A stretch of DNA of 64,000 nt, taken from NCBI GenBank assembly GCA_025363655.1, contig JANYDK010000092.1:186001-250000 (forward strand), written 5' to 3'. Made by a program: the position numbers and the translations under genes. The notes beneath the pieces are model-generated. The model was not told where the DNA came from and did not search any database. It saw nothing but the letters and a program-made list of their open reading frames with translations. Shown here piece by piece: positions 6,940 through 25,235 of this stretch (positions within the stretch are counted from its first letter, which is position 1; each line of letters opens with the position of its first letter). This DNA comes from Deltaproteobacteria bacterium. GTDB lineage: Bacteria > Myxococcota_A > Polyangia > Polyangiales > JADJMO01.

Positions 6940-7566
6940 GTGTTGCGCGGTCCCCAGGAAAAGCTGCTGCGCGTGGCCCGCGACCATCTCGTGGTCCTCG
7001 ACTACGTCCTCTACGATGAAGCCGGCGATGTCGTCGAAGAGACCGACGACGAAGGCGGCGCGCCCGTTCGCTTCGTCTACGGCTATGGAACGCTCGTGCC
7101 CGGCCTCGAGCGCGGGCTCATCGGGCTCGCGCCTGGAGAGACGCGCGAGGTCACCGTTCCGGCCGCCGAGGGCTATGGCCCAGTCCGCGAAGAGCTCGAG
7201 CGATGGGTCGATCGGGCAGATTTTCCCGAGGATTTGGCGATCGACGACGAGTTCGACGCCGACGACGACGAGGGGACGCCGCACACCCTTCGCATCGCCG
7301 AAATCACCGAAGATGCAGTGCTCGTCGACGAGAACCACCCGCTCGCGGGCGTGACGCTGCGCTTCGACGTCATCGTCCGCGAGGTCCGCCCGGCGACCGA
7401 GACCGAGATCGCCGCCGCGCGCAAAGATGCCCCGCCGACCCGTCTCCTCGTCATCAATGCGACCCCCGAGCCTCCCGCCCCTTTGAAGCCGGCGCGCACG
7501 GGAGTACGAGACGAGCCCCGCGGAAAACGACCCAAGCGTCCCGACCCTCTGGACGACGAACAGTAG
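6940..7566 (+). CDS. SlyD-like FKBP-type peptidyl-prolyl isomerase
   Basis: 208 residues from a GTG start. The FKBP core is recognisable: VLDYVLYDEAGDVVEET near the N-terminus, then VRFVYGYGTLVPGLERGLIGLAPGE, followed by an inserted acidic chaperone (IF) segment and the NHPLAGVTLRFDVIV signature of SlyD proteins. It should catalyse cis-trans isomerisation of X-Pro bonds and act as a folding helper in the cytoplasm. Unlike E. coli SlyD it lacks a His/Cys-rich metal-binding tail; its tail is instead Pro/Arg/Asp-rich. It is first in a run of same-strand genes (small protein, DUF1844, HtrA-like protease, Lgt-like) with 21 bp to the next start. Confidence 0.85.
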   Translation: MLRGPQEKLLRVARDHLVVLDYVLYDEAGDVVEETDDEGGAPVRFVYGYGTLVPGLERGLIGLAPGETREVTVPAAEGYGPVREELERWVDRADFPEDLAIDDEFDADDDEGTPHTLRIAEITEDAVLVDENHPLAGVTLRFDVIVREVRPATETEIAAARKDAPPTRLLVINATPEPPAPLKPARTGVRDEPRGKRPKRPDPLDDEQ

Positions 7567-7800: not shown

Positions 7801-8094
7801 ATGGAGATGGAGCTTCCCACCATCGACTTCATGACGCTCGTGGTCTCGCTCTCGCAGACCGCGCTCGTCCACCTCGGTGAGATGGTCGATCCGGAGATGA
7901 CGAGCCCGGAGAAGAACCTCCCGCTCGCTCGCCAGACCATCGATCTGCTCGGAATCCTCCAAGAGAAGACCAAAGGGAATCTCACGGGGGACGAAGAGCG
8001 TTTGCTCGATCAGGTGCTCTACGATCTTCGCCTGCGCTTCGTCGAGGTGGCACGCGAAGAGGCCGGCGGGGCGAGCAAAGAGAAAGAGAAGTAG
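7801..8094 (+). CDS. DUF1844 domain protein
   Basis: 97 residues that match the DUF1844 pattern: DFMTLVVSLSQTALVHLGEM, then NLPLARQTIDLLGILQEKT, GNLT-EE, and LYDLRLRFVE. The family is small, helical, cytosolic and of unknown function; it is common in Deltaproteobacteria and related groups. Its stop codon overlaps the GTG start of the next gene by one base (TAGTG), which suggests coupled expression with the HtrA-like protease. Confidence 0.85.
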   Translation: MEMELPTIDFMTLVVSLSQTALVHLGEMVDPEMTSPEKNLPLARQTIDLLGILQEKTKGNLTGDEERLLDQVLYDLRLRFVEVAREEAGGASKEKEK

Positions 8095-9308
8095 TGAGCA
8101 GAGCGAACCGAAAGCGAGGGTTGGCGATGCGGTCGGTCCAGTTCAGTGGTGCGATCGTGGCGTTGGCGGTCGCGGGCGTCCTCACCGGCTTCGGCGGCTG
8201 CAAGAAGCCCTCGTCCGGCGACGACGGCACCAAGACCGAGACCAAGCTCCCGACTTCGGCGACGGCTGTGACCAGCGGGACGGGCCCGGGCATCTCCACC
8301 GGGCCGGTGATCATCCCCACGCCCGGCCTCAGCGGCGTGCCGGGCCAAAGCGCGCCGCTCAGCTTCGCGCCGCTCGTCCGCAGCGCCGAGCCCGCGGTGG
8401 TGACCGTCGTCATCAAGGTGAAGAAGAAGAGCGGGAAGATGGTGATGAAGGGGCTCGGCTCCGGCTTCATCATCGACAAGCAGGGGACGATCGTGACCAA
8501 CAATCACGTCGTCTCGGGGGGCAACGCCATCGAGGTGGTGCTCTTCAACGACAAGACCGTCGAAGGGAAGGTGCTCGGCACCGACCCGACGACCGACGTC
8601 GCGATCATCAAGATCGATCCGCCGGACGACGTCGTGCCGATCCCGCTCGGTGACAGCGATGCCGTCGCGGTCGGTGACTGGGTCGTCGCCATCGGCAACC
8701 CGCTCGGCCTCACGCACACCGTGAGCGCGGGCATCCTCTCGGCGCGCGGTCGCACCACGCACGACGTGCCGCTCAAGCCCATCGGCGGCGGCGACGCGTA
8801 CTTCGACTTCCTGCAGACCGACGCCGCGATCAACCCGGGAAACAGCGGCGGACCGCTGATCAACGTCAAGGGCGAGGTCATCGGGATCAACACCGCGATC
8901 AACGCCGCCGGACAGGGCCTCGCCTTCGCCATTCCCATCAACATGGTGAAGCTGCTGATTCCTTCCCTGGTGAAGGATGGTCATCTCGTCCGCGCCTACC
9001 TCGGCGTCGGCATCGAAGACGCTGTCGCCGACGGCTCCGGCACCAAGGGCGCGATCATCAACCACGTCTGGAAGGACACGCCGGCTGACAAGGCCGGACT
9101 GAAGGACGGTGATCACGTCCTCGCCATCGACGGCACGCCGGTCCGCGACGCGGCGCAGATGCGTTGGCTCGTCTCCATCGCCGGCGTCGGCAAGAAGGTG
9201 ACGCTTCGCCTGGTGCGCGACGAGAAGACGTTCGATCTCCCCGTCACGCTCGAGGAGCTGCCGAAGAAGGGCCAGCCGACGAGCGACGACGACGAGGACG
9301 AAGAGTAG
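8094..9308 (+). CDS. HtrA/DegS-like envelope serine protease, lipid-anchored
   Basis: 404 residues from GTG 8094 (an ATG at 8127 is also plausible). A hydrophobic segment ends at a lipobox-like GFGGC (Cys36), followed by a Gly/Pro/Thr-rich linker. The trypsin-like domain has the full triad: His138 (TIVTNNHVV), Asp168 (TTDVAIIKI) and Ser251 (INPGNSGGPL). A single C-terminal PDZ domain (about 295-390) follows, so the architecture is DegS-like rather than two-PDZ DegP. A lipid anchor in place of a membrane helix is unusual and would hold it at the envelope for quality control or stress signalling. It is followed 15 bp later by an Lgt-like gene. Confidence 0.88.
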   Translation: MSRANRKRGLAMRSVQFSGAIVALAVAGVLTGFGGCKKPSSGDDGTKTETKLPTSATAVTSGTGPGISTGPVIIPTPGLSGVPGQSAPLSFAPLVRSAEPAVVTVVIKVKKKSGKMVMKGLGSGFIIDKQGTIVTNNHVVSGGNAIEVVLFNDKTVEGKVLGTDPTTDVAIIKIDPPDDVVPIPLGDSDAVAVGDWVVAIGNPLGLTHTVSAGILSARGRTTHDVPLKPIGGGDAYFDFLQTDAAINPGNSGGPLINVKGEVIGINTAINAAGQGLAFAIPINMVKLLIPSLVKDGHLVRAYLGVGIEDAVADGSGTKGAIINHVWKDTPADKAGLKDGDHVLAIDGTPVRDAAQMRWLVSIAGVGKKVTLRLVRDEKTFDLPVTLEELPKKGQPTSDDDEDEE

Positions 9309-9323
9309 TAGTAGCGGACCGAC

Positions 9324-10160
9324 GTGTTCCTCCCCTACATCGACCTCCCGCAAGATCTCGCGCACGGCAAGCTGAAGCCGATCGAGATTCACCCATTCGG
9401 GCTGCTCGTCGCCACCGGCGTGCTCATCGGCTCCTGGCTGATCGTGCGACGCGGGGAAAAATACGGCCTTCCGCGCCAGAAGATGGAGTCGTTTCTCACG
9501 TACGGGCTGGCGTTCGGCTTCGTCATCTCGCACGTGCTCGATCAGCTCATGTACTACCCGAAGGACGTGCTGGCGCGGCCGTACGTGCTTCTTCTCATCT
9601 GGACCAGCCTCTCGTCGTACGGCGGCTTCATCGGCGGCGTCGTCGGCGCGTTCGTCTACAAGGCGGTGAAGAAGGAGAAAATCCTTCCTTACCTCGAGCA
9701 CATCCTCGCCATCTTTCCCGTCGGATGGATCTTCGGTCGCGCGGGATGCTCGGTGGCGCACGATCACATCGGTCGCGCCTCGACGTCGTTTCTCGCCGTG
9801 AATTTCCCTGGCGGACCCCGCTTCGATCTCGGGCTCCTCGAGATGCTGATCACGATCCCGATCGCCGCCTTCATGCTCTGGTTCGCGAGCAAGCCGCGTG
9901 CACCGGGCGTCATCACCGGGACGCTCGCGATCATCTACGCGCCGATCCGCTTTCCGCTCGACGCGCTGCGAGCCACCGACATCGCGCACGCCGATGCGCG
10001 CTACCTCGGGCTGACGCCGGGGCAGTGGCTGTCGGTGGCGCTCTTGGCGGTCGGCGTGCTCCTCCTCGTGCGCGCGCGCAGCCTGCCGAAGACGATGCCG
10101 GCTCCGCTGCCGACCGAGAAACCGGTGGTCACCGAAGACGCCACCGGCTCCGACGTCTGA
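9324..10160 (+). CDS. Lgt-like protein (prolipoprotein diacylglyceryl transferase family, variant active site)
   Basis: 278 residues with about seven membrane segments and the Lgt fold order. In E. coli Lgt, His103, Arg143, Asn146, Glu151, Arg239 and Glu243 are conserved. At equivalent spacing this protein has Tyr99 (SSYGGFIGG), Arg139, Cys142, Asp147 (GRAGC...HD), Arg209 and Asp213. The fold and arginines are kept, but His103 and Asn146 are replaced. It may be a diverged but active Lgt suited to this phylum or a paralogue with another lipid-transfer role. It lies between two lipoprotein genes, and the many lipoproteins in this window require an Lgt somewhere. GTG start. Confidence 0.75.
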   Translation: MFLPYIDLPQDLAHGKLKPIEIHPFGLLVATGVLIGSWLIVRRGEKYGLPRQKMESFLTYGLAFGFVISHVLDQLMYYPKDVLARPYVLLLIWTSLSSYGGFIGGVVGAFVYKAVKKEKILPYLEHILAIFPVGWIFGRAGCSVAHDHIGRASTSFLAVNFPGGPRFDLGLLEMLITIPIAAFMLWFASKPRAPGVITGTLAIIYAPIRFPLDALRATDIAHADARYLGLTPGQWLSVALLAVGVLLLVRARSLPKTMPAPLPTEKPVVTEDATGSDV

Positions 10161-10225: not shown

Positions 10226-10459
10226 ATGAACGCTCGGCAGTTGCTGCTGCTCGGCCTCGGCCCTCTTCTCGTCGGTCTCACGATCGGCTGTGGCGGTGGC
10301 GGCTATCCCGCGCCAAGCAGCGCGAACGACGAGCACGTGGGCGGCCCAGCCGACGACGAGCAAGCTGCCAAGCCTCCGCCCGACGACGATGCGACGGACG
10401 ACGCGCCGCCTCCGCCCGAGCCCGACACGCCGCCCGACCCGCCCAAGGTGGACGACTAG
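10226..10459 (+). CDS. Small lipoprotein with Pro/Asp-rich tail
   Basis: 77 residues from the ATG at 10226. A basic N-terminus and hydrophobic core end in the lipobox LTIGC, so the mature protein is a lipid-anchored ~55-residue peptide made mostly of Pro, Asp and Ala (PPPDDDATDDAPPPPEPDTPP). It is intrinsically disordered and acidic, with no domain. It follows the Lgt-like gene by 65 bp on the same strand. It could be an envelope spacer or simply a tail-only lipoprotein; no function can be assigned. Confidence 0.65.
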   Translation: MNARQLLLLGLGPLLVGLTIGCGGGGYPAPSSANDEHVGGPADDEQAAKPPPDDDATDDAPPPPEPDTPPDPPKVDD

Positions 10460-19143: not shown

Positions 19144-20575
<1,432 letters not shown>

Positions 20576-20635
20576 CCGATGATGAGCGCGTGGCCGAGGC
20601 GACATGACCGACGCGATGTCGATTTTGGGTGAGCG

Positions 20636-21505
20636 ATGAGCACGCCGCTTCGCCGGGGGCGCGACATCGTCGTCGTCATCCTTCTGCTCGCTCTGCCCTT
20701 CTTCGTCCTCCGCGCGAACGTCCGTGATCCGCGCAAGCTCAACGCGCTCGACCGACTGATCCTCCGCGCCTCGGCGCCGTTGCAGTACGTCGGCGCGCTC
20801 CTCGGACGGGGCATCTCGTCGCTCGTCGGCTCGTACGTCTATCTCGTCGACGTGAAGCAGGACAACGAGCGTTTGCAGCACGAAAATGCGGTGCTTCGTG
20901 AGAAGGCGCGCAAGCTCGAGGGCCTCGAGGCGCAGAACCGCCGGCTTCGCGAGAAACTCGGCCTCAAAGAGCAGCTCGGCCCCGAGGCGCTGACCGCCCA
21001 GGTCATCGCCAAGGACGGCACCGAGTTCCACGTCGCCCGCATCTTCCTCGATCGGCCGAGCAGCGAGGTGAAGCCGGGCTGGCCGGTGCTCAACGAAGAA
21101 GGCGTCGTCGGCGTCGTGCTCCGCGCCGAAGGACCGAACCTCGAGGTGCAGTTGGCGATCGATCCGCAAGTGGCCATCGACGTCGTCGACGATCGCACCG
21201 GCGCGCGCGGCATCGTCCGTGGCACCACCGACGTCGACAAGTACTCGTGTCGCGTCGAATACATGAAGCGGAGCGACGAGGTCGCGGTCGGCGATCTCCT
21301 CGTCACGAGCGGCGTCGGTACGCGTTTCGCCAAGAATTTGCGGGTCGCCAAGATCACCAAGATCGTCAACCGCGGCTTCGGCGAGTTCCAAGAAGTGGAA
21401 GCCGAGCCGGTGGTGAACTTCTCGCAGCTCGAGGAAGTGATCGTCGTCCCCGAGGCCAACGCCGAGAAGAACGCCTCGCCGAGCCCGGGCGAACCGAAGA
21501 AGTGA
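20636..21505 (+). CDS. mreC: Rod-shape-determining protein MreC
   Basis: 289 residues: a short cytoplasmic N-terminus, a membrane segment (about 12-30), a coiled coil (about 68-105, DVKQDNERLQHENAVLREK...), then two beta-barrel domains (VIAKDGTEFHVARIFLDRPS..., LLVTSGVGTRFAKNLRVAKI). The periplasmic part regulates PBP2/RodA. The GGGTGAG-like sequence upstream supports the ATG at 20636. It lies between mreB and mreD. Confidence 0.95.
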   Translation: MSTPLRRGRDIVVVILLLALPFFVLRANVRDPRKLNALDRLILRASAPLQYVGALLGRGISSLVGSYVYLVDVKQDNERLQHENAVLREKARKLEGLEAQNRRLREKLGLKEQLGPEALTAQVIAKDGTEFHVARIFLDRPSSEVKPGWPVLNEEGVVGVVLRAEGPNLEVQLAIDPQVAIDVVDDRTGARGIVRGTTDVDKYSCRVEYMKRSDEVAVGDLLVTSGVGTRFAKNLRVAKITKIVNRGFGEFQEVEAEPVVNFSQLEEVIVVPEANAEKNASPSPGEPKK

Positions 21506-21514
21506 AGAGCGGCC

Positions 21515-22150
21515 ATGCGCTACACAGCCTTCTTCCTCCTCGGAGTTCTCCTCATCGTCGCCCAAGGTGAGACGTACATGATCCTCGGGCCGATCGCGGC
21601 CAAGGGGTTCCGGCCTTCGCTGCTGGTGCCGCTTCTCGTCTATCTCGGGGTCACCGAGGCCAACCTCGCGCTCGGCGCCTGCGTGGCCTTCGTCCTCGGC
21701 TACGTGCTCGACGTCGTCTCGGGTTCGCCGATTGGCCTCCACACGTTCACCGCCGTCGCCACCGTCGCCCTCGCGCGCATCGCCGGGCTCCGCATCGTCA
21801 CCCAAGGAGGCTTCGCGCGTGCGCTCCTTGCGGGTGCCTTCGCCGCGCTCGGCGCGATCATCATCCTCGTCCTCCTCGTCATCTTCGGCACCACGCTGCG
21901 CAACGTGATGGTCGGGCCGGTGCCGCTCAATTCGGTGGCGGTGGGAAGGCCCTATCTGCCGCGGGCGTTGCTCAAGCTCGTGGTTCCGCACGCCATCGCC
22001 ACGGCCGTGCTCGCCCCGCTCGTCTATCGGCTCGCCGAGAAGACGTCGGCGCTCGCATCCAGCTTCCTCGGCCAGAAACCCGACGAGACTCGCCCGAGCA
22101 AATTGGCGACACCAGCGGCGGCGCGTCCGAACGAGGAGCCGAAGTCGTGA
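21515..22150 (+). CDS. mreD: Rod-shape-determining protein MreD
   Basis: 211 residues with five or six membrane segments and a short polar tail; MreD-like features include an early strongly hydrophobic region (FFLLGVLLIVAQG) and ALGACVAFVLGYVLDVVSGSPIGLHTF. It completes the elongasome with MreB and MreC at the inner membrane. Its TGA overlaps the GTG start of mrdA (GTGA at 22147-22150), so translation is coupled. Confidence 0.9.
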   Translation: MRYTAFFLLGVLLIVAQGETYMILGPIAAKGFRPSLLVPLLVYLGVTEANLALGACVAFVLGYVLDVVSGSPIGLHTFTAVATVALARIAGLRIVTQGGFARALLAGAFAALGAIIILVLLVIFGTTLRNVMVGPVPLNSVAVGRPYLPRALLKLVVPHAIATAVLAPLVYRLAEKTSALASSFLGQKPDETRPSKLATPAAARPNEEPKS

Positions 22151-24087
22151 GCTTGCTCACGCAGCGCCCCGACGTGGGCGAGTTCCGCAAGCGATACGCC
22201 TGGATGGCGCTGACCGTCCTCGCGCTGATGGTGGTGCTCGTCGTGAAGTTGGTGGTGTTGCAGATCGTCCACCACGACGAGAACGCCGCGATCGCGCACG
22301 ACAACATCGTCCATCGACTGACGCTCGCCACCAGCCGCGGCGTCATCCGCGATCGCAACGGCGTCGTCCTCGCAGCCAGCCGTGAATCGTGGAACGTCTA
22401 CGTCGTCCCGGCGCGGCTCGATTTCGAAAAAGTGTGGCCGACCCTCGCCGACACGCTCGCCCTCGGCCCCGTCGAGCGCGCGACCCTCGAACAGAAGCTG
22501 CGCACCACGCACGACGACGATCTCGCCAAGCTGAAGAAAGATCCGAAGCATCACATTCGCGAGGTCATCGTCCGCGAGGACGTCGGTCGCGACATCGTCG
22601 GAGCGCTCGAGACCCACGCGCTCGAGCTCCCTGCCGTCAATTGGCTCTCGGTGCCGATGCGCTACTACCCGAGCAAAGAGCTCGGGTTTCATCTCCTCGG
22701 GTACGTCAACGAGGTCAGCGCCGACGACCTCAAGCTCGACGTCGCCGGGCTCTTGCAGGCGGGCGATCGCATCGGCCGCAGCGGCATCGAGCGCGCGTGG
22801 GAGAGTCAGCTCCGCGGCGAGCGCGGTTGGCGAAAGATCATCCTCGACGCACGCGGCGGCAAGCGCCTGGCGAAGGAAGATCTCGCCCAGATCGATCAGC
22901 CCGCCGAGCAGCCGCCGATTCCCGGTCGCGACATCCGCCTCACCATCGACGCCGATCTCACCGCCGCTGCGAGACGCGCCTTCGCCGGACAGCTCGCCGG
23001 CGCGGTCGTCGTCGTCGAGGTCAAGACCGGTCGCGTCCTCGCGCTCTATTCCAAGCCCGAGCTCGATCCCAACGACTTCGTCAGCGGTCTCACCGGCAAA
23101 CAGTACGAGGGCATCAACGAGAACCCGCTCCACCCGCTCATCGACAAGACGATGCACGAGGCGTACTTCCCGGGCTCGACGATGAAGCCGTTCTCGGCGC
23201 TCGCGGCGCTGATGACCAAGGCGATGACGCCCGAGTCGCACGAGACCTGCGAGCACATCTACGTCCTCGGAAAAACCCGCTTCAAATGCGAAGGTCTGCA
23301 CGGGCAGATCTCGCTCCACGACGCCATCGTCCACAGCTGCAACATCTATTTCTACCACCTCGGCGAGAAGACCGGCCTCGACGCGATGGCCGCGGTCAAC
23401 ACCGACTTCGGCTTCGGACAGCGTGCCGGCATCGGCATCAACTTCGAAGTGCCGGGGCTCGTGCCGACCAAGGCTTGGTACAATCAGCACTACGGCGGAC
23501 AGTTCCGGCTCGGCTTCACGCTCAACGCGGCGATCGGGCAAGGCAACACCAAGGTGACCGTGCTCCAGCTGGCGATGGCCTACGCCGCGCTCGGCAACCA
23601 CGGAACTCTCTACGCACCGCAGGTCGTCCGCTCGATCGAGAGTCACGACGGCAAGGTCGAGGTCGACTTCGCGCCGCAGCTGCGTCGCACCCTCGCGCTC
23701 CCGCCCGATTCACTCCAGGCGGTGCTCGAGGGCATGCACGGCGTCGTCAACGAGCCCGGCGGCACCGCGTACAAGGAGCGCACCGAGAAGGTCGATGTCG
23801 CCGGAAAAACCGGCACTGCGCAGGTCTCCAAGATCTCGCAAAAGGCGGGGCTCGATCCGCACCAGATTTGGTACTTCAACCGCGACCACGCCTGGTTCGC
23901 CGGCTTCGCGCCCTACGACAACCCCGAGATCGCCATCGTCGTCCTCGTCGAGCACGGCGGCGGCGGTGGGCACAACGCCGCCCCGATCGCGATGCGCCTC
24001 TTCGAAGAGTACTTCACGAAGATCAAGCCGGGCGCCGCCGGGGGAAGTCAGAAGCCGCCGCCCTCCGCGCAGAAGGGCACCAAGTGA
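22147..24087 (+). CDS. mrdA: Penicillin-binding protein 2 (elongasome transpeptidase)
   Basis: 646 residues, a class B PBP. One N-terminal membrane helix (about 18-40), a dimerisation/pedestal domain (GVIRDRNGVVLAAS), then the transpeptidase domain with Ser344-T-M-Lys347 (PGSTMKPF), Ser397-C-Asn399 and Lys554-Thr-Gly. It cross-links peptidoglycan during side-wall growth together with RodA, whose gene overlaps its 3' end (GTGA at 24084-24087). The SxN motif is SCN, as often in PBP2. Confidence 0.96.
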   Translation: MSLLTQRPDVGEFRKRYAWMALTVLALMVVLVVKLVVLQIVHHDENAAIAHDNIVHRLTLATSRGVIRDRNGVVLAASRESWNVYVVPARLDFEKVWPTLADTLALGPVERATLEQKLRTTHDDDLAKLKKDPKHHIREVIVREDVGRDIVGALETHALELPAVNWLSVPMRYYPSKELGFHLLGYVNEVSADDLKLDVAGLLQAGDRIGRSGIERAWESQLRGERGWRKIILDARGGKRLAKEDLAQIDQPAEQPPIPGRDIRLTIDADLTAAARRAFAGQLAGAVVVVEVKTGRVLALYSKPELDPNDFVSGLTGKQYEGINENPLHPLIDKTMHEAYFPGSTMKPFSALAALMTKAMTPESHETCEHIYVLGKTRFKCEGLHGQISLHDAIVHSCNIYFYHLGEKTGLDAMAAVNTDFGFGQRAGIGINFEVPGLVPTKAWYNQHYGGQFRLGFTLNAAIGQGNTKVTVLQLAMAYAALGNHGTLYAPQVVRSIESHDGKVEVDFAPQLRRTLALPPDSLQAVLEGMHGVVNEPGGTAYKERTEKVDVAGKTGTAQVSKISQKAGLDPHQIWYFNRDHAWFAGFAPYDNPEIAIVVLVEHGGGGGHNAAPIAMRLFEEYFTKIKPGAAGGSQKPPPSAQKGTK

Positions 24088-25235
24088 TCGCGCGCGCATC
24101 GTCGATGCCGGGACGCGTCCGTGACAACGTCGACTGGCCACTCCTCATCGTCGTCTTGCTCATCGCCGTCGTCGGCGTCGTCAATCTCTACAGCGCCACC
24201 AGCGTCGCCCGCGGTGGTCGCGCCGATCTCTACGTCACGCAAATCTATTGGCTCGTCGCCGGCGGCATCGCCGCCACGCTCGCCGCCACCATCGACTATC
24301 GCCACTTCGAGCGCCTCGGCTACGTCATCTACGGCGGCGGCATCCTTTTGCTCCTCCTCGTCTTCATCCTCGGCCGCGACATCCACGGCGCCGCGCGATG
24401 GATCGACATCGGCGGAAAAGACAGGGGATTTCGCTTTCAGCCGTCGGAGTTCATGAAGATCATCCTCGCGATCTCGCTCGCGAAATATCTCCACGACGAT
24501 CCGAAATTGGCGGTCGGTCCCGGCGGCGGCGGACGAACGCTGAAGGACTTCATCGTCCCCAGCATCCTCGCAGGCATCCCCTTCGCGCTCGTCGCCAAGC
24601 AGCCCGACCTCGGGACGTCGCTCATCCTCGCCGGCATCTTCATCTCGGTGATGGCGATGGGGAAGATTCGCTGGCAGTCGCTGGCGACGCTCGTCGTCTC
24701 CATCGCCGTCGCCGCGCCCGTGCTCTGGAACTACGTCCTCAAGGACTACCAGAAGCAGCGAGTCATCTCCTTCATCAACCCCGAGCTCGACATTCGCGGC
24801 GCCAACTGGCACTCGCACCACGCCAAGATCGCCATCGGCAACGGCGGCTTCTCCGGCATGGGCTACATGAAGGGGACGCAGAACCACTATCTCTTCATCC
24901 CCGAGCAGCACACCGACTTCCCCTTCCCCGTCTTCGCCGAAGAGTGGGGTTTTCTCGGGTGCATCGTCCTCGTCGTCCTCTATTCGTTCCTCGTCCTCTG
25001 GGGAATTCGCATCGCCTCGCAGGCGAAAGATCGCTTCGGCGCCGCGCTCGCCATCGGCGTGACCGCGATGATCTTTTGGCACGCATTCTTCAACATTGGA
25101 ATGGTCACCGGCGTCCTCCCGGTGGTCGGCGTGACGCTCCCGCTCTTCTCCTACGGCGGATCGAGCGTGACCACGATCCTCATCGGCATCGGCCTGCTGA
25201 TGAACGTCAGCATGCGTAGGTATTCGTTCGGATGA
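24084..25235 (+). CDS. rodA: Peptidoglycan glycosyltransferase RodA (SEDS)
   Basis: 383 residues from the GTG at 24084 that overlaps the mrdA stop (an ATG at 24105 is a weaker alternative). Ten-helix SEDS topology. Conserved parts include YSATSVARGG, RWIDIGGKDRGFRFQPSEFMKI, VAKQPDLGTSL (with the essential Asp), GFSGMGYMKGTQNHYLFIPEQHTDFPF and PLFSYGGSS. It polymerises lipid II with PBP2. Last gene of the rod operon; it ends 21 bp before the convergent outer-membrane protein gene. Confidence 0.96.
   Translation: MIARASSMPGRVRDNVDWPLLIVVLLIAVVGVVNLYSATSVARGGRADLYVTQIYWLVAGGIAATLAATIDYRHFERLGYVIYGGGILLLLLVFILGRDIHGAARWIDIGGKDRGFRFQPSEFMKIILAISLAKYLHDDPKLAVGPGGGGRTLKDFIVPSILAGIPFALVAKQPDLGTSLILAGIFISVMAMGKIRWQSLATLVVSIAVAAPVLWNYVLKDYQKQRVISFINPELDIRGANWHSHHAKIAIGNGGFSGMGYMKGTQNHYLFIPEQHTDFPFPVFAEEWGFLGCIVLVVLYSFLVLWGIRIASQAKDRFGAALAIGVTAMIFWHAFFNIGMVTGVLPVVGVTLPLFSYGGSSVTTILIGIGLLMNVSMRRYSFG

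Follow-up and report, generated by a model that had tools for sequence, protein, structure and literature searches.

The locus and its neighbours

The window, by which we mean the whole stretch of 64,000 nucleotides that was analysed, has at 9324-10160 on its forward strand a 278-aa open reading frame with a GTG start. The frame is genuinely protein-coding, as seen from its GC content by codon position (0.65/0.43/0.88), its score to the Pfam LGT family PF01790 (111.2 bits versus a cut-off of 24.9, spanning residues 17-249) and its orthologues in other genomes, whose identity runs up to 64%. The product belongs to the Lgt family and, within it, to a group that we call class W. The features, all on the + strand, are these:

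6940..7566, +, FKBP-type peptidyl-prolyl isomerase (Pfam FKBP_C, 41.3 bits)
7801..8094, +, DUF1844 protein (Pfam DUF1844, 107.7 bits)
8094..9308, +, upstream HtrA/DegP-like protease (trypsin + PDZ) with a lipoprotein-like signal (Pfam Trypsin_2, PDZ_2)
9324..10160, +, class W Lgt-family protein, 278 aa (Pfam LGT, AlphaFold2 model, 5azb match)
9618..9620, +, Tyr99 codon, at the position of E. coli H103 (alignments; no His in 69 class W rows)
9738..9749, +, Arg139-Cys142 codons, E. coli R143-N146 (R139 and C142 in 69/69 rows)
9759..9767, +, His146-Asp147-His148 codons, class W signature, E. coli G150-E151-L152 (D147 and H148 in 69/69 rows, H146 in 65/69)
9762..9824, +, shortened periplasmic head, Asp147-Phe167 (alignment; 21 residues versus 46 in E. 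coli E151-H196)
9948..9962, +, Arg209-Asp213 codons, E. coli R239-E243 (R209 and D213 in 68/68 rows reaching there)
10226..10459, +, downstream 77-aa putative lipoprotein (signal ending LLVGLTIGC)
19541..25219, +, mreB, mreC, mreD, PBP2-like transpeptidase and RodA/FtsW-like genes (Pfam)

The FKBP isomerase, DUF1844 protein, HtrA-like protease, class W gene and 77-aa putative lipoprotein form a same-strand cluster. The protease matches NCBIfam HtrA families, none of them above its curated cut-off. The original prediction placed the class W gene between two lipoprotein genes; the flanking genes do stand as by-eye lipoprotein predictions, with lipoboxes that are imperfect in both, FGGC in the HtrA-like protein and TIGC in the 77-aa one. 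Comparison is with 80 other class W loci, the best 80 of 194 stretches encoding a relative. The window's four nearest relatives (L086-L089) also have FKBP upstream, and three of them (L086, L087, L089) have a clustered HtrA gene. mreB is downstream of class W in 25 of the 80 loci, some of the loci ending too early to show it; the genes between class W and the mre block differ, and so we regard the arrangement as synteny and not an operon. An argument from operon logic was dismissed, the HtrA neighbour being confined to the window's nearest relatives. Other class W contexts include thioesterase, diacylglycerol-kinase-like and ComEC-like genes (Pfam, one member each), along with what we take to be RlmN and a beta-barrel-like gene. 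Since the contexts vary, they yield no single pathway.

Two recurrent neighbours are recorded here as observations. The gene directly upstream of class W in 25 of the 80 loci belongs to one cluster (L135:4499-5998) with a lipoprotein-like signal, GCA following a hydrophobic stretch, and a Pfam scan of one member gave no match. A YegS/diacylglycerol-kinase-like gene (the cluster of L097:6846-8423) is near class W in 13 of the 80 loci; of its 14 members, 13 are encoded on the opposite strand.

Fold and active-site residues

The AlphaFold2 model of the window protein, made from an alignment of 57 rows (the window and 56 class W loci found by pattern), has a mean pLDDT of 92.8. Foldseek against solved structures finds E. 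coli Lgt with E = 6.5 × 10−11 and a TM score of 0.74, and VIA aligns the model to 5azb at Z = 21.8 over 250 residues and 3.4 Å, with the next structure at Z = 6.6. The model has the Lgt fold, and E. coli Lgt is the lone standout among solved structures. Matches scoring below Z = 7, to HD hydrolases and GPCRs, were dismissed as being at chance level for helical bundles.

Residues were aligned against E. coli Lgt from NC_000913.3, with which identity is 24-25%. The substitutions named by the original prediction are borne out, H103 becoming Tyr99, N146 Cys142, E151 Asp147 and E243 Asp213, as is its statement that both arginines are retained, R143 and R239 corresponding to R139 and R209. The constant offset from E. 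coli Lgt that it had used has to be given up: the offset is 1 at Y26/F25, 4 for H103 through E151, 29 at E202 and 30 from Y235 onwards. The periplasmic head of the window protein, about 25 residues shorter, accounts for this. The head of E. coli Lgt is delimited as E151-P197 (Mao 2016, PMC4728403), and the 46 residues of E151-H196 have just 21 counterparts in the window protein. Further changes that had escaped that prediction are Y26 to Phe, loss of the H196-P-S-Q stretch and the presence of an H146-D147-H148 triplet. The canonical Lgt signature motif GRLGNFINGELWG is not matched, and the window protein carries GRAGCSVAHDHIG in that place. Against these differences, the protein shares with E. 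coli Lgt (5azb/5azc) the fold over 250 residues and counterparts of R143, G154, E202, Y235, R239 and R246. Having Tyr99 and Cys142, it is not an E. coli-type Lgt by H103 and N146, and it scores 83.3 bits to the curated Lgt equivalog TIGR00544, under the cut-off of 118.9.

His103 is the proposed catalytic base of E. coli Lgt. In that enzyme the replacements H103A, N, Q, R and Y fail to complement, and the lipid is bound and activated by R143 and R239 (Mao 2016, PMC4728403). Y26A, H103A and N146A are likewise described as failing, H103Q doing better than H103A (Legood 2026, PMC13251419).

Class W and the other LGT genes of Myxococcota

Class W is a distinct, widespread, short-headed Lgt subfamily without His103, recognized by the motifs SSxGG (x = hydrophobic or Tyr), GRxGC and DHxG. 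In 69 distinct rows, collected through overall sequence similarity or Pfam matches with no motif imposed, position 99 (E. coli 103) is F in 37, Y in 22, V in 5, M in 3, and I and L in 1 each, and His never. S98, R139, C142, D147, H148 and G150 are invariant in all 69, and R209, D213, R216 and D224 in all 68 rows that extend that far, with H146 (65 rows) and H70 (63) less strict. A larger set of 94 rows, made up of the window, 80 pattern-found loci and 13 sole-copy genes, agrees at position 99 (F62 Y17 V11 M3 L1); the invariance of R139, C142, H146 and D147 in that set is partly built in, because the locus pattern demanded GRxGC and HD. A quick-method tree of 123 rows, of which 105 are distinct, with SH-aLRT as its sole support measure, sets class W apart on one side of a branch supported at 100. 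The other groups have support of 100 (class A), 100 (class D), 98 (canonical) and 37 (class B).

The best 80 of the 194 relatives are mostly labelled as myxobacteria/Deltaproteobacteria, a few as Acidobacteria or Terriglobia (L150, L155, L164, L165). By our own cut, an A1 match with E up to 10−33 counted by hand at the level of the genome rather than residue by residue, class W is found in about 157 of the 282 Myxococcota genomes in the sample, three more falling just outside (E from 10−30 to 4 × 10−29), and it is also found in some Acidobacteria-named MAGs. Plasmid-borne relatives were set aside as distant matches only, at 26-30% identity in the 5 listed of 10 records. One genome of the window's family (G001) has at least four class-W-like matches of 42-60% identity, so the group expands locally.

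The window's own genome (9.0 Mb in 150 contigs, 96% complete) has one lspA match and three LGT genes, namely a class A gene on contig 144, a class B gene on contig 123 and the window gene; the LGT matches number four, two of them being pieces of the contig 123 gene. A check for a second, canonical lgt, proposed with the original prediction, thus turns up two more LGT genes and neither is canonical, both being Y103/C146. That prediction offered either an adapted Lgt or a paralogue with a new role. The paralogue part holds insofar as there are three LGT genes. The substitutions as a sign of a new role were dismissed, since Tyr at 103 and Cys at 146 are common to all three copies and therefore mark no new role. 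The class A and B paralogues (L001, L002) resemble class W in these two residues and in both arginines, but they keep HPTQxYE and E243, carry FGCD or AGCC in place of the AHDH of class W, and fall outside the class W branch of the tree. Among 14 genomes with no class W match, from which the 20 best-scoring LGT stretches rather than every copy were sampled, a canonical LGT is present in all 14, and class B too in four f36 genomes and G288.

An LGT match is present in 277 of the 282 genomes, and exactly one in 45. The count is of matched stretches, which excludes single genes matched in two pieces; as these are often class B, 45 is a lower bound and biased against that class. The single match is class W in 13 genomes, class D in 29 plus one look-alike fragment, class B in 1 and canonical H103/N146 in 1, so that H103 and N146 are present in 1 of the 44 single-match genomes readable at both positions. 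That class W is the sole match in 13 of 45 favours an adapted Lgt over a paralogue with a new role. These are draft genomes, and 7 of the 13 are below 90% complete. The other six (G193, G201, G209, G257, G329, G363) reach a completeness of 90% or more with contamination no higher than 5%; three of them, G193, G201 and G209, at 96, 99 and 99% complete, represent one genus.

LspA acts on diacylglyceryl-modified prolipoproteins. It is encoded in 10 of the 13 class W sole-copy genomes, including all six of high completeness, and the three with no lspA match are all 65-79% complete. Where lspA is present something must lipidate prolipoproteins, and the sole-copy genomes yielded no candidate other than class W. 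When nine short loci surrounding class W or lspA in these genomes were scanned for lipoboxes, one candidate emerged, and BamD was checked instead. All six high-completeness genomes have BamD above its curated cut-off, with an N-terminal hydrophobic stretch ending in Cys; the lipoboxes are imperfect and the placement of the cysteine is lipobox-like. A class W gene as the only LGT alongside LspA is thus found at the level of the subfamily, the window's own genome having three LGT genes.

Class D, from other Myxococcota, is like class W in having Tyr103 and Cys146 and in often being the sole LGT match in the sample. It differs in having Asp-Asp for Asp-His (GDDYG or GDDWG in the single-match genomes), Asn, Ser or Ala at Tyr235, and HPTQ or HPTM mostly kept. 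Tyr235 is essential in E. coli Lgt according to PMC8689077 and PMC13251419. As class D (L196, L216, L219-L245) is the sole match in 29 of the 45 single-match Myxococcota genomes, even Tyr235 is missing from a likely sole Lgt.

Function of class W and competing readings

The feature in the window is real, was correctly read and is mostly explained, as an Lgt-family enzyme of a clade-wide variant. We think it quite probable that the gene encodes a short-headed, active prolipoprotein diacylglyceryl transferase with no need of His103, its activity and substrate being judged from sequence and predicted fold; most likely it still lipidates lipoproteins, as opposed to being an oddity whose function has been lost. 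The basis for this is the computed fold, the conserved residues, the clade, and the sole-copy genomes with lspA and a BamD bearing a lipobox-like cysteine. Counting against it are the alterations of class W at Y26, H103 and N146, all needed in E. coli, and the shortfall from the TIGR00544 cut-off; also, with two further LGT genes in its genome, the window copy need not be the general one.

Judging from conservation and fold, a phospholipid would most likely be held in the Lgt cavity by R139, R209 and a network of E173, Y205, D213 and R216, these six corresponding to E. coli R143, R239, E202, Y235, E243 and R246. The diacylglyceryl group would then be passed to the thiol of the lipobox cysteine. 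Position 103 may be Phe, Val, Met, Ile or Leu and therefore supplies no base there. Deprotonation of the cysteine might be assisted by the substrate, or carried out by the invariant D147-H148 pair; to nominate that pair, at the place of the headgroup-binding E151 of E. coli, as the base is a guess prompted by its conservation.

That other Lgts have lost H103 and N146 has already been published (PMC13251419). The text of that work gives Y in place of H103 in Firmicutes, W in Actinobacteria and F also elsewhere, with C at N146 and C or D at E151 in distant Lgts, and it describes one subgroup, including Myxococcales, without even R143 and R239 (Legood 2026, PMC13251419). Class W, unlike that subgroup as described there, has counterparts of both arginines. 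It shares the absence of His at 103 with the Firmicutes and Actinobacteria enzymes and, compared by description, goes beyond them: it has Cys146 and the D-H signature, and in 10 of its 69 rows residue 103 is V, M, I or L. In the Lgt literature consulted, we found no description of the class W signature, of non-aromatic residues at 103 or of a sole-copy role. Class W strengthens the case made in the text of PMC13251419 that H103 is not universal, and a natural test of the His103 mechanism is offered by a large clade that lacks His103 and yet provides the one LGT match of some genomes encoding lspA and a BamD with a cysteine placed as in a lipobox. In myxobacteria, loss of H103 or N146 is not to be taken as loss or change of function.

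Compatible with a functional transferase is the idea that class W, where several LGT genes coexist, would lipidate only certain proteins, such as the neighbouring HtrA-like lipoprotein protease or envelope-stress or cell-wall lipoproteins. The three LGT genes of the window's genome (G000) point this way, as do the adjoining FKBP and HtrA genes, mreB downstream in the 25 loci, and the short head, given that substrate specificity is attributed to head and arms (Legood 2026, PMC13251419). But a clustered HtrA gene occurs in only 3 of the 80 other loci, all within the window's four nearest relatives, the neighbours of other class W genes differ, and 13 genomes have no LGT match besides class W. 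We lean against such specialization while regarding it as a serious contender.

It is rather unlikely that the Lgt fold has been turned to other chemistry, with a lipid donor other than phosphatidylglycerol or another acceptor. E151, which is given as the holder of the phosphatidylglycerol headgroup in E. coli (PMC4728403), is now within the H-D-H triplet, and a cluster of diacylglycerol-kinase-like genes, one member of it Pfam-checked, is in the class W flanks at 13 of 80 loci. Yet the counterparts of R143, R239, E202, Y235 and R246 are retained, and LspA, which acts on diacylglyceryl-modified proteins, is present in sole-copy genomes.

A role for class W in MYXO-CTERM lipidation is possible. 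The acyltransferase for the MYXO-CTERM cysteine is left unassigned and drawn as Lgt-like in the text of Guo, Haft and Wall (2025, PMC11980579), where an Lgt or Lgt-like enzyme is favoured. Among the best 26 candidates per genome, MYXO-CTERM (TIGR03901) matches are found in 146 of 157 class W genomes versus 74 of 125 without class W, and at least five in 136 of 157 versus 45 of 125 (Fisher p = 5 × 10−19, uncorrected for shared descent). We dismissed this co-occurrence as proof of a link, the association being strong and not tight. Class W is not present wherever MYXO-CTERM proteins are, as the 74 genomes lacking a class W match by our own cut show. Tagged proteins without a class W match occur in families such as f36 (at least 26 in one genome) and f24, and the best-scoring LGT genes from seven such genomes are canonical or class B. 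Conversely, no MYXO-CTERM match is found in 11 class W genomes, among them every class W genome sampled from f25 (six) and from f29 (two). These exceptions both ways disfavour a dedicated link. Myxosortase is also reported to cleave the tag in E. coli with no added enzyme (PMC11980579). That class W lipidates the invariant Cys of C-terminal tags ahead of myxosortase cleavage is therefore improbable in our estimation, and we give equally little credence to the broader version, by which class W would lipidate both MYXO-CTERM cysteines and ordinary lipoproteins through D147-H148, with canonical Lgt doing so in f36-like lineages.

Least probable of these is a catalytically dead or regulatory relative of Lgt, which the altered H103, N146, Y26 and HPSQ stretch might suggest, set against the invariance of R139, C142, D147, H148, R209, R216 and D224, the 13 genomes with class W as their sole LGT match, and the same 103/146 changes in both other copies of the window's genome.

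Two minor observations concern other LGT-family genes in the sample. Very divergent ones (L210, L211, L199, L200, L202), some without a recognisable HGG region, occur next to class W or, in small genomes, on their own. Three large f36 genomes (L276, L278, L280) have two neighbouring or overlapping class-B-like LGT reading frames.
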